Below are positions 9,097-31,853 of a stretch of DNA of 32,024 nucleotides, one piece after another. A program made the translations under genes and the position numbers. Each line of letters starts with the position of its first letter. The first letter of the stretch is position 1. A model generated the notes under the pieces. It worked only from the letters and a program-made list of their open reading frames with translations. It had not been told where the DNA came from and ran no database searches. Source of the stretch: Patescibacteria group bacterium (GTDB lineage Bacteria > Patescibacteriota > Patescibacteriia > 2-12-FULL-60-25); contig JAKLEH010000015.1 in NCBI GenBank assembly GCA_022703155.1, positions 1-32,024 on the forward strand, given 5' to 3'.

Positions 9097-9225
9097 AAAA
9101 ACAGCAAACAGCAAAGTCCAAACAGCAAAGTCCCACGCATTTGTTCACCTCATTGTTGCTGTTTGTTGTTTGAAGTTTGCTGTTTGCGCCAGCCATTGCT
9201 GTTTGTTGTTTGAAGTTTGCTGTTT
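9097..9225. repeat. Inverted 7-bp array between znuA and znuC
   Basis: The left arm (9099-9133) has AAACAGC and AAAGTCC units. The right arm has two identical four-unit blocks (9156-9183 and 9196-9223) of TTGCTGT and TTGTTGT, with TTGAAGT in third place. A 22-bp centre separates the arms. The array ends 2 bases before the znuC ATG and leaves no room for a ribosome site. The same word recurs at 27701, 28857 and 30024. Confidence 0.9.
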
Positions 9226-9927
9226 ATGCAAGCGATATCCGTCAAAAACCTCACCGTTTCCTTTGGACCGCAGGCCGTTTTGGACCGCGTGAGTTTTGAC
9301 GTGCCCAAAGGCGGCTTGGCGGCCGTCATCGGTCCCAACGGTTCGGGCAAAACCACCTTGTTCAAAGCCCTGCTCGGACTCATACCTTATCAAGGCACGA
9401 TCAAGGTTTTTGACAAACCGGTCAAAGAAATTTTGGACCGCGTGGCTTACGTGCCGCAATATTTTGATTTTGACCGGACTCTGCCCATCACGGTCCAGGA
9501 ATTCCTCTCGTTCAACCACCCGCGACAGCCCAAGCAGTCCAAAGAAATCTGCCACGAAACCAAGGTGGGCGCGCTCAAGCCAAAACTAATCGGCCAGCTT
9601 TCCGGCGGCCAACTGCAACGCGTGCTCATCGCCAACGCGCTCATGCGCCAACCCAAACTTTTGTTGCTGGACGAGCCCGCGGCCGGCATCGACATCGAAG
9701 GCTCCAAAGCCTTCTACGACCTGGTCGGCCACGTCAACAAAGAGCACGGCGTCACGGTCGTGATGATCAGCCACGAAATCAACATGGTTTACCACTTCGC
9801 GGACCAAATCATCTGTCTGAACCGCGATTTGGTGTGCAACGGGCCGCCTCACGAGGCGTTGACCAAAGACGTAATGGCCAAACTCTACGGTCCGACATCC
9901 GACTTCCGGCCCCACGCGCACTTATGA
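9226..9927 (+). CDS. znuC: Zinc ABC transporter ATP-binding protein
   Basis: 233 aa. Walker A GPNGSGKTT lies at residues 36-44, a Q-loop in YVPQYFDFD, the signature LSGGQ, Walker B LLLLDEP and the switch His in MISHE. It powers zinc import through ZnuB. The ATG at 9226 is chosen because the TTG start nine bases earlier is part of the repeat array. The C-terminus ends in HAHL; the His residues there are few compared with classical ZnuC. The gene overlaps znuB by four bases (ATGA), so those two are translationally coupled. Confidence 0.93.
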   Translation: MQAISVKNLTVSFGPQAVLDRVSFDVPKGGLAAVIGPNGSGKTTLFKALLGLIPYQGTIKVFDKPVKEILDRVAYVPQYFDFDRTLPITVQEFLSFNHPRQPKQSKEICHETKVGALKPKLIGQLSGGQLQRVLIANALMRQPKLLLLDEPAAGIDIEGSKAFYDLVGHVNKEHGVTVVMISHEINMVYHFADQIICLNRDLVCNGPPHEALTKDVMAKLYGPTSDFRPHAHL

Positions 9928-10744: not shown

Positions 10745-11545
10745 CTACTCCACGATTTTACCCAACACGACGCGGTGATCTTCCTTTCCGCCATCCGGTC
10801 TTTTGATTGCGACCTGCCCACACAGACTGCCGCCCACGTTGCGGACGTCGTCGCAATGCTCGATTTCCCGGCCGCCGATTTCCCCGACGAGTTCGCCGTT
10901 GATGGCGGGCAGCCAACGCCCGCCGACCTTGATTTCGCCGTTCAGCTTGCCGCCCACGTTGCGGACGTCACGGCAACCCGCGATTTCCCGGCCGCCGATT
11001 TCCCCGACGAGTTCGCCGTTTATGGCGGGCAGCCAACGCCCGCCGACCCGGACCCTGCCGTTCAGCTTGCCGCCGATGAGTTCGTATTTTTCCCATTCGT
11101 CCAAGGCCGTGACCTTTTTCCCGGAGGCTTCGAGGTGCGCGACGAGGCTTTCGAAAGCCTCGGGCGGCGGGAGTTCTTGGGCGTCGGGGGGCAGCTCGTT
11201 CTTGTCCAACGCTAAGCCCAGGGCGTCGAGCAGCCGCAGCAATTCTTTGGCGTTTTCCTTGGGGACTTTAACTTTTCCTGCTTTGGCCCTGGCGTACAAA
11301 TCGGCGGCGTTATTTGCTCCGTACGCCCCGTAAAAAGCCTGGATTTCGGCGTAGAGCTTGTCCGCGTAATCGCGGACTTCCGGCTTCAAATCCTGGCGGC
11401 GGGTTTCGTAACCGGTGTCGTTTGGCGTCAATTCACCCCGCCCTCCCTTAACGAGGGAGGGTTCTGATTGTTGAATAACAATTCCTCTCTCGTTAAGGGA
11501 GGATGGCCGGAGGCCAGGAGAGTTAACGTTTTTAAACGGGTTCAT
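10745..11545 (-). CDS. Unknown protein with 40-residue tandem repeats
   Basis: 266 aa; the ATG at 11543-11545 overlaps the stop of the upstream gene as ATGA and has AAGGAA upstream, so the start is well supported. Residues about 8-40 are encoded by a palindromic repeat inserted in frame. Residues 50-150 are charged and mostly helical (RDYADKLYAEIQAFYGAYG, then AKELLRLLDALGLALDKNE). Residues about 155-266 hold two nearly identical 40-residue repeats and a third partial one, each with GGKLNG, VGGRWLPAINGELVG and GGREI; the pattern suggests a beta-rich repeat resembling WG or MORN types, but no family is matched. No signal peptide. It is coupled to the 150-aa gene before it and probably works with it. 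Confidence 0.75.
   Translation of the reverse strand: MNPFKNVNSPGLRPSSLNERGIVIQQSEPSLVKGGRGELTPNDTGYETRRQDLKPEVRDYADKLYAEIQAFYGAYGANNAADLYARAKAGKVKVPKENAKELLRLLDALGLALDKNELPPDAQELPPPEAFESLVAHLEASGKKVTALDEWEKYELIGGKLNGRVRVGGRWLPAINGELVGEIGGREIAGCRDVRNVGGKLNGEIKVGGRWLPAINGELVGEIGGREIEHCDDVRNVGGSLCGQVAIKRPDGGKEDHRVVLGKIVE
10831..11070. repeat. Two tandem 120-bp coding repeats
   Basis: Units 10831-10950 and 10951-11070 are nearly identical at DNA level and encode the 40-residue protein repeats. A third, diverged unit starts at 11071. The low divergence points to recent duplication or gene conversion. Confidence 0.9.
11428..11525. repeat. Palindromic element inside the N-terminal coding region
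   Basis: Inverted arms of CCCTCCCTTAACGAGGGAGG (11441-11460) and CTCTCGTTAAGGGAGG (11488-11503), flanked by the outer words AATTCACC and GGAGAGTTAA, surround an AT-rich centre. The whole element is translated as part of the 266-aa protein on the minus strand. Confidence 0.75.
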
Positions 11546-14953: not shown

Positions 14954-15073
14954 ATGTCGGAGGTCGGAGGTCGGAGGTCGGAGGTCGGAGATCGGAGGTC
15001 GGAGATCGGAGGTCTTTGATCCGGTCGTCGGACAATCTGACTTCCTGAAAAATGACGTCCGACTTCCGACTTT
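14954..15073. repeat. 7-bp array TCGGAGG, inverted, between ftsE and ftsX
   Basis: From 14954 about eight consecutive units of AGGTCGG or AGATCGG are seen; the other arm (about 15040-15073) has GACGTCC and GACTTCC units in complementary sense. A centre of about 25 bp separates them. It ends at the ftsE stop codon. The transcript of the operon would carry the array as a long hairpin. Confidence 0.9.
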
Positions 15074-18837: not shown

Positions 18838-18968
18838 AATTCATAAAATTCATAAGATTTTTAAAATTCATAAGATTTCCCGCAATACGCAATCCAATAT
18901 TTTCATAAAAAGATTTCTAAATGCCCCAATCTTATGAATCTTATGAATCTGACAAATCTTACAAATAA
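18838..18968. repeat. 9-bp-period inverted array, AATTCATAA/ATCTTATGA
   Basis: The left arm (18838-18880) has AATTCATAA units with one diverged unit, GATTTTTAA, in third place. The right arm (18928-18966) has ATCTTATGA units, again with a diverged third, ATCTGACAA. About 45 bp of unique sequence lie between. The array lies between the MurE stop and the PH-protein start. Confidence 0.85.
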
Positions 18969-26567: not shown

Positions 26568-27686
26568 TCACCACCGTACGATGAACAAATACGAACTATA
26601 CATGGCCTGCCAAAACGGATTGGCTATCTTTTCGGCCCAGCCGCTCTTCAATTCCTGATACTCGATCTTGTACGTCATGCGGCGGAAGACGTACCAATCC
26701 GGAACTTGGCGGATCCGCGCCGTCTGCTCGCGTCCGGCCAACAAATACTTCCAAGTGCCGGGCTTGAGCAATGCCAGATTGGCCAAAAACTTCTGTTTGA
26801 GCCAGCCGCCTTTGACCGCGAATGCCCAAATGGCCATGTCCGTAGAGACCAGGGCCGGCAAAAGCGCGATGAGCGTGGCCAATTTGTAATTCTTGAACAC
26901 GACCAACCAGCGGTTGCGCTCCATGAGCCGCCATTTGGAGATGGAACGCGAAAATTCGTAGTGGTGGACGACGCGGCTGGCTGGGGCCAAATAATTGCGT
27001 TTGCCGGCCAACGTCACGCGCCAACCCAAATCCAAATCTTCGTGGTACGAGTGCAGGTATTCGTCCAACAGGCCTATGGACTCGAACGTGGTCACGGGAA
27101 TGAGCACGCCCGCGCCCGAAGGATACGGGATGTCGACCGGTTCGGCCGGCGCGCTCGACACCGGATCGTGGTCGCCCATGCAATAACCGAAGCCCAAGTA
27201 ATGCAACGCGTTGCCGCGCGAATTGATTTGGTCCGGATGGTCCCCGCGCAACAGCAATGATTGGACCGTGCCCACGTCCTTTTGTTCCAAAGCGACCTTC
27301 ACGGCTTGGGCCAACGCGTCGGGCATGATTTCCGTATCCGGATTCAACAGGTAAACGAATTCGGAATTGTGCCGCATGGCCCAAATCATGGCCAAATTGT
27401 TGCCCCCCGCAAACCCCAAATTCGCATGCGGCTCATGGATGATGATTTCCGGCATTCCTCTCTCCCCCCCCCCGCCCGCCGTAGCTTCAGCGAAGGCGGG
27501 TCCCACCCTCCCACCCTTCCACCCTTCCACCTTCTCCTTCGTCCCATCCCCGTCTTTGTTGATGACCACATGCAGCCTCCAGCGGTCGCGCGGATAATCA
27601 AGTTTGGCCAGCGACGCGAACAACGCGTCCATGTAGGAAGCGTGGCCCCACGACACTATTATTATGTCGACCATTGGGTGTTCCAT
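26568..27686 (-). CDS. GT2 glycosyltransferase (rhamnosyltransferase-like) with repeat-derived insert
   Basis: 372 aa; the ATG at 27684-27686 or the one four codons later. GT-A fold: VDIIIVSWGHASYMDALF at the start, HANLGFAGGNNLAM (a hallmark of WbbL-like rhamnosyltransferases), LLNPDTEIMPDAL with the Asp of the metal site, and SYHEDLDLGWRV with the catalytic-base region ED. A hydrophobic stretch near residue 290 (YKLATLIALLPALV) may bind the membrane. Between DGDGTKEK and MPEIIIHEP about 24 residues derive from two repeats. It adds a sugar, perhaps rhamnose, to a growing lipid-linked glycan. Confidence 0.87.
   Translation of the reverse strand: MEHPMVDIIIVSWGHASYMDALFASLAKLDYPRDRWRLHVVINKDGDGTKEKVEGWKGGRVGPAFAEATAGGGGERGMPEIIIHEPHANLGFAGGNNLAMIWAMRHNSEFVYLLNPDTEIMPDALAQAVKVALEQKDVGTVQSLLLRGDHPDQINSRGNALHYLGFGYCMGDHDPVSSAPAEPVDIPYPSGAGVLIPVTTFESIGLLDEYLHSYHEDLDLGWRVTLAGKRNYLAPASRVVHHYEFSRSISKWRLMERNRWLVVFKNYKLATLIALLPALVSTDMAIWAFAVKGGWLKQKFLANLALLKPGTWKYLLAGREQTARIRQVPDWYVFRRMTYKIEYQELKSGWAEKIANPFWQAMYSSYLFIVRW
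27475..27532. repeat. Palindrome plus 8-bp array inside the GT2 gene
   Basis: A palindrome with ends CCCGCC and GGCGGG (27475-27500) is followed by 8-bp units TCCCACCC (twice) and TTCCACCC/TTCCACCT (27501-27532). Both are translated on the minus strand, giving VEGWKGGRVG and PAFAEATAG. Confidence 0.85.
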
Positions 27687-27700
27687 ATCGAACTAAACAG

Positions 27701-27781
27701 CAAGATACAAATTCCAAACAGCAAAATTTTAAATTTTATCACCCCTCCCCTTGCTGTTTGCTGTTTGAAGTTTGCTGTTTC
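27701..27781. repeat. Inverted 7-bp array, AAACAGC/TTGCTGT words
   Basis: The left arm has AAACAGC-type units at about 27703 and 27716-27726. The right arm (27752-27779) has TTGCTGT (twice), TTGAAGT in third place and TTGCTGT. The right arm overlaps the 3' end of the DUF2304 gene. Confidence 0.85.
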
Positions 27782-28856: not shown

Positions 28857-28923
28857 AAAACAGCAAACAGCAAATTTCAAACAGCAAGGGTAGGCCTTGC
28901 TGTTTGCTGTTTGTTGTTTGGAT
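28857..28923. repeat. Inverted 7-bp array, AAACAGC/TTGCTGT words
   Basis: Left arm: AAACAGC twice, AAATTTC in third place, AAACAGC. Right arm: TTGCTGT twice, TTGTTGT, TTGGATT. The centre is only about 11 bp, so a hairpin of more than 25 bp can form. A T run follows on the plus strand. Confidence 0.9.
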
Positions 28924-28935
28924 TTTTTCGCTCTT

Positions 28936-30003
28936 TTACGCCGGCGCCGGGCCCTGTGGCGGTTTGATGGTGGCGGGCGGAGCGGTTTGGGCGAAGCCCG
29001 AGAGCAATTGGCGGTTGGCCACGGTGTAGTCGATGATTTTCTTGAGGCCTTCCTCCAGCCTGACCAGCGGCATCCAACCCAGCTTTTCCTTGGCCTTGGC
29101 CAAATCCGGCAAACCCAGCGGGGTCATGAACATGAGCGACGGCTGGAACACGATGCGGCTCGACGACCCGGTCATCTCCAGGATGGTGCGCACCACGTCC
29201 ACGATGGGCATGTCCAAATCGCTGCCCACGTTGACCGGACCCAAATCCCCGTCCGTGTTCATGAGTTTGATCAGCGCGTCCACCACGTCGGTCACGTAAC
29301 ATAACGACGTCAGGAAGGTTTCGTCGCCGTAAATTTCGATGTCTTTGCCGTCCAAGGCGTTGACTATGAAATCCGGAATCATCTCCCCCGAGAACAGGCG
29401 TTCGCGCGGCCCGTAGGTGCGGAACACGCGCGCGATTTTGACGTCCACGTTGTGCACTTGCCGATAGGTGGCGCAGCACGTCTCGGCGAACCGTTTGCCT
29501 TCGTCGTAACAGGCGCGCGACGACAAAGCGTTGACGCAACCCACCTCCTCTTCCTTGAGCGCGTGGTTGTCGGCCGGGCGCGGGCCGTAAACCGTGGAGG
29601 TGGAGGTGAACAGGGCCTTGGCGTGGTATTTGACGGCCAAATCCAAAACGTTCTTCATGCCCACGCTGTTGGCGTAGAGCGTCTGCATGCGCGTCTGCTC
29701 GAAATGCTTGGGGCTCATGGGGCAGGCCAGATGGTAAATCTCCTGCACGCCCTGGAACTTGATCTTGAAACGTTCCAATTCCGGATACTGCTCCGGGTCG
29801 AACGGCATGACGATGTCCTGCCGGATGAATTCGAAATCCGGATTCTTGAGCAGGAAGTCGATGTTGTTGAGTTGCGCGGACACCAGATTGTCCACGCAAA
29901 TGACGCGCGCGCCCGTGGCTAAAAGCTTTTCGCACACGTGCGAACCGATGAAACCGGCACCGCCGGTCACCAGGATGTTCTTTTTGTCGAAGACGGGAGG
30001 CAT
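28936..30003 (-). CDS. UXS-like extended SDR (UDP-sugar decarboxylase/epimerase family)
   Basis: 355 aa from the ATG at 30001-30003. NAD-binding TGGAGFIG at residues about 13-20, VDNL with the ribose-binding Asp, HLACPMSP, STSTVYG, and the catalytic pair in CYDEGKR (Tyr-x3-Lys). RVFRTYGPRERLF and DETFLTSLCYVTDVVDALI complete the UDP-glucuronate decarboxylase-like pattern. In UXS/ArnA the motif is STSEVYG or similar with a catalytic Glu; here it is Thr, so the reaction may differ. The C-terminus ends in a Pro/Ala-rich tail. It probably makes a nucleotide sugar for the glycan cluster. Paralogous to the next gene. Confidence 0.85.
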   Translation of the reverse strand: MPPVFDKKNILVTGGAGFIGSHVCEKLLATGARVICVDNLVSAQLNNIDFLLKNPDFEFIRQDIVMPFDPEQYPELERFKIKFQGVQEIYHLACPMSPKHFEQTRMQTLYANSVGMKNVLDLAVKYHAKALFTSTSTVYGPRPADNHALKEEEVGCVNALSSRACYDEGKRFAETCCATYRQVHNVDVKIARVFRTYGPRERLFSGEMIPDFIVNALDGKDIEIYGDETFLTSLCYVTDVVDALIKLMNTDGDLGPVNVGSDLDMPIVDVVRTILEMTGSSSRIVFQPSLMFMTPLGLPDLAKAKEKLGWMPLVRLEEGLKKIIDYTVANRQLLSGFAQTAPPATIKPPQGPAPA

Positions 30004-30023
30004 AACTTGGTAAAAAATCAATT

Positions 30024-30102
30024 TTCAAACATCAAACAACAAACGTCCTTCCCCTTTTTACCGTCGCCCTTTGCTGTTTGTTGTTTGAATTTTGTTGTTT
30101 TG
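30024..30102. repeat. Inverted 7-bp array, CAAACAA/TTTGTTG words
   Basis: The left arm (30026-30046) has CAAACAT, CAAACAA and CAAACGT. The right arm (30070-30102) has TTTGCTG, TTTGTTG, TTTGAAT and TTTGTTG. It fills the gap between the two UXS-like genes. Confidence 0.85.
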
Positions 30103-30103
30103 T

Positions 30104-31117
30104 CTAAAACGATACCGACTGCCGAGTGGCGTTGGCGTATTCGATCATGGATTTGAGACCGTCTTCCAAGCGCAACAGCGGCACCCAACCCAGCAAATCC
30201 TTGGCGCGCGACGTGTCGGGCAAACCCGGATCGATGTAATTTTGGATATGCGGCTCAAAACGCACGCGCGAACCCGAACCCGTAATCTCCAAAATCTTTT
30301 GGGCCACCGAAACCAGACGCACTTCCTGGTCCGAACCCAAGTTCACCAACGTTATTTCGATGGGCGAATGCATGAGCCGGATCAAACCGTCCACCACGTC
30401 GGTCACGTAAGCCAATGACGTGCGCGTCTCTTCGTCGCCCGCGATGGTGATGTCGCTGCCTTCGAGCGCGTTCAGCACCATGTCGGGTATGAGGTTGCCG
30501 TCGAAAATCTTCATGCGCGGCCCGAAGGTCCGGAAGATGCGCGCGATCTTCACGTCCAAACCGTACACGTCCGCGTACGTCTGCAATATGGCTTCGGAAA
30601 AACGCTTGCCTTCGTCGTACGCGCCGCGCGTGGTTAGGTGGTCCAGATGGCATTCGTCCGTCTCTTTGACCTTCTCGGGTATGCCGCGGCGGTTGCCGTA
30701 AATCACGCTGGATGAGGCGTACAGGATTTTGGCGTGGTTCTCGACCGCGATGTCCAAAACGTTCTTCACGCCCACGGAATTGGTGAGCACGGTCGCGATT
30801 TTGAAATCCTCAAAATGGCGTTTGGAAATGGGGCAGGCCAAATGGTAAATCTCCTGGATGCCTTGGACCCCGACTTTGAAGCGCTCCAATTCGCTGAAGC
30901 GCGAAAAGTTGAGCGGCTGGGTGATGTCGTGGTTGATGAATTCGAAATGCGGCTCGCGCAACAGGTGGTCGATGTTGGCCACCGAACTGGTGATGAAATT
31001 GTCCACGCAGATGACGTTGCTGTCGCGGACCAACCGGTCGCACAAATGCGAACCGATGAAACCCGCCCCGCCCGTCACCAAAACGTTTTTGCGTTCGGAT
31101 ATGAATTTTCCCTCCAT
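30104..31117 (-). CDS. Second UXS-like extended SDR paralogue
   Basis: 337 aa from the ATG at 31115-31117; the 24 codons upstream are array sequence and are rejected. Motifs: TGGAGFIG, VDNF, HLACPISK, SSSVIYG, AYDEGKR with Tyr-x3-Lys, RIFRTFGPRMKIFDG. The position of the UXS catalytic Glu is Val. Similarity to its neighbour runs over the whole length, including the NIDHLL/NIDFLL and ERFKVGVQGIQEIYHLACP segments, so the pair arose by tandem duplication and the two have diverged in the active site. They may act in series or as a heterodimer; this is inference. Confidence 0.85.
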   Translation of the reverse strand: MEGKFISERKNVLVTGGAGFIGSHLCDRLVRDSNVICVDNFITSSVANIDHLLREPHFEFINHDITQPLNFSRFSELERFKVGVQGIQEIYHLACPISKRHFEDFKIATVLTNSVGVKNVLDIAVENHAKILYASSSVIYGNRRGIPEKVKETDECHLDHLTTRGAYDEGKRFSEAILQTYADVYGLDVKIARIFRTFGPRMKIFDGNLIPDMVLNALEGSDITIAGDEETRTSLAYVTDVVDGLIRLMHSPIEITLVNLGSDQEVRLVSVAQKILEITGSGSRVRFEPHIQNYIDPGLPDTSRAKDLLGWVPLLRLEDGLKSMIEYANATRQSVSF

Positions 31118-31121
31118 AATT

Positions 31122-31217
31122 TCATGTAACACGCAACATGAATCATGTAACACGCAACGCGCACGAAGCCGGTCCATTCCCTGCTTCATGTTACATGATA
31201 CATGTTACATGTTACAT
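31122..31217. repeat. Inverted 7-bp array, CATGTAA/TTACATG words
   Basis: The left arm (31123-31165) has CATGTAA, CACGCAA and CATGAAT units. The right arm (31186-31217) has TTACATG (three, one as ATACATG) and TTACATT. It joins the GtrA stop codon to the start region of the second UXS-like gene. Confidence 0.9.
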
Positions 31218-31748: not shown

Positions 31749-31834
31749 CGTCATGCCGAACTTGGTTCGGCATCTAGGTTGATAACGTGGATCCTGAAAC
31801 TAGTTCCCGCCAGAGGCGGACAGGCAGGATGACG
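31749..31834. repeat. Composite palindromic element, CGTCAT...ATGACG
   Basis: Left hairpin ATGCCGAAC with GTTCGGCAT, a central GGATCCTGAAAC word, then a CCGCC/GGCGG hairpin, closed by CAGGATGACG. Built like the element at 26471 with other inner words. The rest of 31661-31853 shows no gene. Confidence 0.75.
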
Positions 31835-31853
31835 GAGGGATCGCGATTAAATT

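Follow-up and report, generated by a model that had tools for sequence, protein, structure and literature searches.

Palindromic repeats that are read in frame within protein genes are already known from Rickettsia and from intragenic copies of REP sequences (Di Nocera et al., 2013; PMC3733652). That paper describes two tagged REP superfamilies, GTAG and CGTC. The CGTC REPs are reported there without a transposase and include the Rickettsia palindromic elements RPE-4 and RPE-6, and intragenic REP copies are reported from genes for DNA repair, polymerases and tRNA synthetases.

The DNA analyzed here is a stretch of 32,024 nt from a Patescibacteria group bacterium (referred to as the window), in which a gene for a GT2-family glycosyltransferase carries a palindrome and an 8-bp array (Table 1). 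The original prediction, that two different repeats adjoin each other in frame in this gene, was confirmed: both lie in the reading frame of a single 372-aa ORF. In coding order, the purine-rich array is followed by the hairpin and then by a tract of ten G. The array was identified by TRF with a period of 8, 3.9 copies, 95% match and a score of 48, and an equally strong array was obtained in the gene in 5 of 1000 shuffles in which the local composition was kept. The window holds a single copy of the hairpin core (0.02 copies expected at 3 mismatches). Model R1, which was built from the other copies of the hairpin, matched positions 27470-27501 with 48.8 bits (E = 1.4e-9 over the genome). It is very likely that the GT2 insert is an in-frame REP-like element.

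Table 1. Features of the GT2 gene and its insert (positions in the window)
Feature	Position	Strand	Basis or remark
GT2-family glycosyltransferase gene carrying the insert, 372 aa	26568..27686	(-)	ORF, Pfam and orthologues
8-bp purine-rich array (GGGTGGGA/GGGTGGAA)n, part of VEGWKGGRVG	27501..27531	(-)	TRF
Whole 26-bp hairpin, CCCG-CCTTCGCTGAAGCTACGG-CGGG (core and 4-bp outer stem CCCG/CGGG)	27475..27500	(-)	model R1
Hairpin core CCTTCGCTGAAGCTACGG, read as AFAEAT	27479..27496	(-)	sole copy in window
3' tag position; CGGG here, one base off the CARG of the family	27471..27474	(-)	fixed offset in family
Homopolymer G10 (C10 on the + strand), abutting the hairpin	27464..27473	(-)	genome G-run search
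Repeat-derived segment, residues 55-77 (GWKGGRVGPAFAEATAGGGGERG)	27456..27524 (approximate, alignment-dependent)	(-)	alignment with 29 homologues

The GT2 protein matches Pfam PF13641 (E = 1.1e-10) and also PF00535. Its AlphaFold model is confident (mean pLDDT of 90.1), and the nearest solved folds are GlfT2 (TM 0.62-0.66 by query length) and polypeptide GalNAc-transferases. Residues that are invariant over 29 aligned GT2 sequences are, by definition, kept in the insert-bearing protein, and its sequence suggests nothing that would point to a dead gene.

Comparison with related GT2 genes showed that the insert is missing from all 8 same-genus orthologues (59-67% identity), in which both flanks stay homologous, and likewise from the GT2 homologues of 21 further relatives. 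The insert site holds about 9 native residues, such as RKLADLQPQ in L035, where the window gene encodes GWKGGRVGPAFAEATAGGGGERG. The repeats had been predicted to add about 24 residues just after the first beta strands of the enzyme. The change is not a simple addition, since roughly 23 residues of repeat origin (55-77) stand in place of some 9 native ones, which results in a net gain of 14. The placement could be refined to a position after the second beta strand and the following helix, between H49-57 and E80-84. Residues 61-80 form the weak stretch of the N-terminal domain, with block-mean pLDDT values of 63-64 compared to mostly >90 elsewhere; as modelled, the insert is a low-confidence loop in an otherwise confident structure.

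As the low-complexity C10 and the array adjoin, it was considered that the assembly might be erroneous or chimeric at the homopolymer. This is highly improbable, because the frame is intact with homology on both sides and the existence of the hairpin family does not depend on this site. A frameshift at the C-run (27464-27473) was not seen. Thus, with insert-free homologues present and no frameshift, the prediction withstood both checks, and the evidence supports the in-frame insertion of two dispersed repeats at a single point.

When G10 was changed in silico by -2 to +2 bases, a stop was reached within about 30 codons, and for these changes and the gain or loss of one octamer taken together, each stop lay within about 50 codons of the change. 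The assembled lengths of G-run and array are therefore the ones that keep the frame. The same behavior would be expected of a phase-variable contingency locus, in which the octamer array and G10 slip in replication, switch GT2 on and off and vary a surface sugar. The location of the gene among glycosyltransferase and epimerase genes would fit such a role, as would the rarity of G-runs of at least 9, since searches of the source genome (1.23 Mb), from which all its genome-wide counts were taken, identified only two, the GT2 tract and one other. However, same-genus orthologues lack such a tract, the hairpin element that it adjoins here is unrelated to it and the consensus assembly plainly stays in frame, so that phase variation is regarded as improbable. 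The other G-run is a G10 at L284 (G000:C35:9236-9245), which overlaps an uncharacterised open frame of 151 aa.

The unit of the hairpin family is the hairpin YCCG-CCTTCGCTRAAGCTWCGG-CGGR followed by an unpaired 3' CARG tag (on the other strand, 5'-CYTG-hairpin). In 172 copies that were unselected for pairing, outer-stem positions 1-4 paired in 122, 144, 151, and 141 copies, respectively, compared to shuffled means of 67.5, 107, 129, and 73. Pairing ends at position 5, as positions 5-7 did not pair beyond the shuffles. The covariation count of alignment A1 is biased by the preselection of its copies for pairing, and the unselected count is the trustworthy one. CARG was identified at the fixed tag offset in 67 of 178 copies and in 0-10 copies at any other offset, and a second CARG directly followed the tag position in 9 of 178 copies, compared to 0-4 at later offsets. 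In the GT2 copy the tag is mutated, and a nested outer repeat is not visible.

Within the phylum, the degenerate core was found exactly in 88 of 380 genomes, with 0-11 exact copies per genome, whereas the reversed control gave 0 matches. With one mismatch allowed, the 18-nt core was present in 27 of 96 relatives. The core was also identified in at least 118 stretches of other genomes from many phyla; among the matches listed for named genomes are Verrucomicrobia, Acidobacteria, Bacteroidota, Planctomycetota, Lentisphaerae, Proteobacteria and several Patescibacteria. The source genome has 17 matches to model R1, the weakest of which are uncertain, and this copy number is low compared to that of a typical REP.

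Most copies lie outside long frames. An open frame of at least 150 aa spans 44 of 179 copies, although some of these frames are probably spurious, and Pfam-supported long frames run through the element in homologues of valS, a lysS-type class II synthetase, asnB, an O-antigen ligase, murC, gyrB, polA and ileS. Outside GT2, an in-frame reading denotes a frame read through the element; insert-free orthologues were aligned for GT2 only. The hairpin core was also found inside or at the edge of RNase P RNA genes, in different places (L007, 1478-1979; L025, 281-848).

In L008, L030, and L271, a gene whose translation looks by eye like ribosomal protein L1 is immediately preceded by a leader-like stretch GTGGGAGGTC...ACCACGGG, which has a hairpin copy in one stem in all three genomes. 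A matching Rfam family was not found for this leader. The opposite orientation of the copy in L271 compared to L008 and L030 was considered as evidence for inversion and dropped, as the core is nearly symmetric.

CGTC-type REPs are abundant in the source genome, where 98 CGTC REP ends were counted versus 1 control match. Although these ends number only 98 in 1.23 Mb, about 6 of the 17 matches to model R1 were found within such REP units. In the clearest nested case, the hairpin splits the CGTC REP loop, with the A on one side of it and the CAAG-like end on the other. Nested outer stems of at least 7 bp were observed in 11 of 175 copies, compared to about 1 in shuffles. The recurrent meeting is that of a palindrome within a palindrome, with the hairpin in the loops of CGTC-type REPs. 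Separately, a CGTC-type REP dimer was observed in the window at 31749-31835, the second unit of which nests a related shorter hairpin, CCCGCC-AGA-GGCGGACAGG (31805-31825).

The REP-like size, hairpin and tag, together with a GTAG on the reverse strand of the element (CCGTAGCTT), would be consistent with a non-autonomous GTAG-type REP that is moved by a REP-associated tyrosine transposase (RAYT). Y1_Tnp genes are present in 25 of 57 relatives and in 12 of 16 element-rich genomes. However, the GTAG is internal to the hairpin and not an unpaired tag at its end, and no Y1_Tnp gene was found in the source genome. In addition, copies of the element do not accompany Y1_Tnp genes, and a core within ~1.5 kb of Y1_Tnp was found at only 1 of 55 loci. 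A linked RAYT was rejected, as consistent flanking was seen neither in the 57 relatives nor in the 16 element-rich genomes or at the loci from other phyla. A dedicated RAYT for the hairpin element is not supported, and a RAYT/REP system is considered unlikely.

Spread could also occur free of any transposase, if the hairpins were copied by template switching in replication or by recombination at short homologies and settled where they are tolerated. A dedicated enzyme was not found, and the outer stems vary freely yet stay paired, as palindrome correction could yield; the CGTC REPs are likewise reported without transposase (Di Nocera et al., 2013; PMC3733652). On the other hand, the fixed tag offset and the presence of one unit in many distant phyla suggest a recognized unit, and this route is rather doubtful.

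The meeting of both repeat classes at one insertion point had been taken as a hint of a common target or mechanism. This is only partly supported. In other phyla, arrays with a period of 5-12 were located within 60 bp of the hairpin at 22 of 118 loci, compared to 6.6% in non-ORF and 1.9% in ORF controls. In the Patescibacteria-like set, no clear excess of arrays within 60 bp was observed (4 of 59; 2 of 43 non-ORF vs. 5.5% and 2 of 16 ORF vs. 2.9%). A strong lag-7 or lag-8 peak was not found by autocorrelation of the flanks. Shared insertion-tolerant sites would explain the enrichment without a shared mechanism. Octamers like those of the GT2 array were identified at ~5 other places in the genome, one of them in a 647-aa ORF with nearly the same peptide.

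At L118, in a murC homologue, the hairpin is bordered on both sides by short heptamer-like repeats that face in opposite directions; this is a second instance of an array and the hairpin sharing an insertion point. The window contains further repeats. AAACAGC heptamer arrays occur as inverted pairs at gene junctions (27694-27780, 28857-28930, 30012-30110, and 9099-9235), and other inverted short-period pairs are located at 14956-15072, 18838-18966, and 31124-31217. The regions 28936-30021 and ~30050-31140 are tandem similar NAD-epimerase regions, ~1111 bp apart, with matched blocks that are 71-83% identical. At 10828-11074, a 120-bp tandem repeat is present in 2.1 copies with 89% matches.

Based on the observed orthologues without insert, stem covariation, tag, multi-phylum dispersal, in-frame copies and loop nesting, the insert is best explained as a REP-like palindromic mobile element of which GT2 carries a protein-coding copy, with a probability of about 0.7 and with the mechanism of spread left open among the readings described here. 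A REP-like hairpin would have inserted into a surface segment of GT2 next to a local 8-bp array, or possibly jointly with it. The insert would persist because it leaves the reading frame intact over its total length and sits in a segment where additional residues are tolerated, and it is probably close to neutral for the enzyme. The element might spread as single-stranded or hairpin DNA, moved by an enzyme supplied in trans, and copies other than that in GT2 point to possible insertion beside sites resembling CYTG, which hairpin loops often expose. This hairpin-loop insertion is put forward tentatively. More speculative still is a third, CYTG-tagged REP-like superfamily, which would be distributed over many phyla including very small genomes and would insert next to CYTG in DNA hairpin loops, such as those of other REPs and structured-RNA genes. 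In-frame insertions into genes would then be a by-product, and short tandem arrays would gather at the same sites.

In the open-access literature, a search for the core, for its related repeat CCTTCGACAAGCTCAGG and for the encoded peptides identified no relevant paper, and no description of the end tag of the family was found. As consensus, tag and model are now defined, copies can be recognized and masked in annotation, including peptides such as AFAEATAG, VASAKAG, and RSFSEGG. The nesting in hairpin loops and the fixed tag without a linked transposase make REP-like movement testable.

As described by Di Nocera et al. (2013), GTAG and CGTC REPs share with the hairpin family a short hairpin, compensatory stem changes, an unpaired tag at one end and intragenic copies. 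In contrast to GTAG REPs, the tag of the family is CYTG/CARG with GTAG internal, although the hairpin may still correspond to one of the 24 GTAG families of that paper; furthermore, it does not flank Y1_Tnp and is not high-copy per genome. Unlike CGTC REPs, it has no terminal CGTC tag, and its copies sit inside those REPs. MITEs have terminal inverted repeats with a target-site duplication; in the hairpin family a stem is present, and the CARG repetition after the tag position (9 of 178 copies, see above) is thin evidence of a target site. Phase-variable loci resemble the GT2 gene in that a coding repeat disrupts the frame when its length changes, as seen here in silico. Cyanobacterial STRR sequences are short tandem heptamer or octamer arrays. 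By description only, the GT2 array is similar to them in being a short-period tandem that is dispersed in the genome, whereas it has a period of 8 and is purine-rich. Rickettsia palindromic elements are, like the GT2 insert, in-frame palindromic inserts in unrelated protein genes, and the insert shares their absence from orthologues (8 compared). RPEs also occur in RNA genes. The hairpin family, likened to RPEs by description, has a different tag and spans many phyla rather than one genus, and thereby widens the known range of protein-coding palindromic repeats beyond Rickettsia and a few other bacteria to a family present in many phyla.
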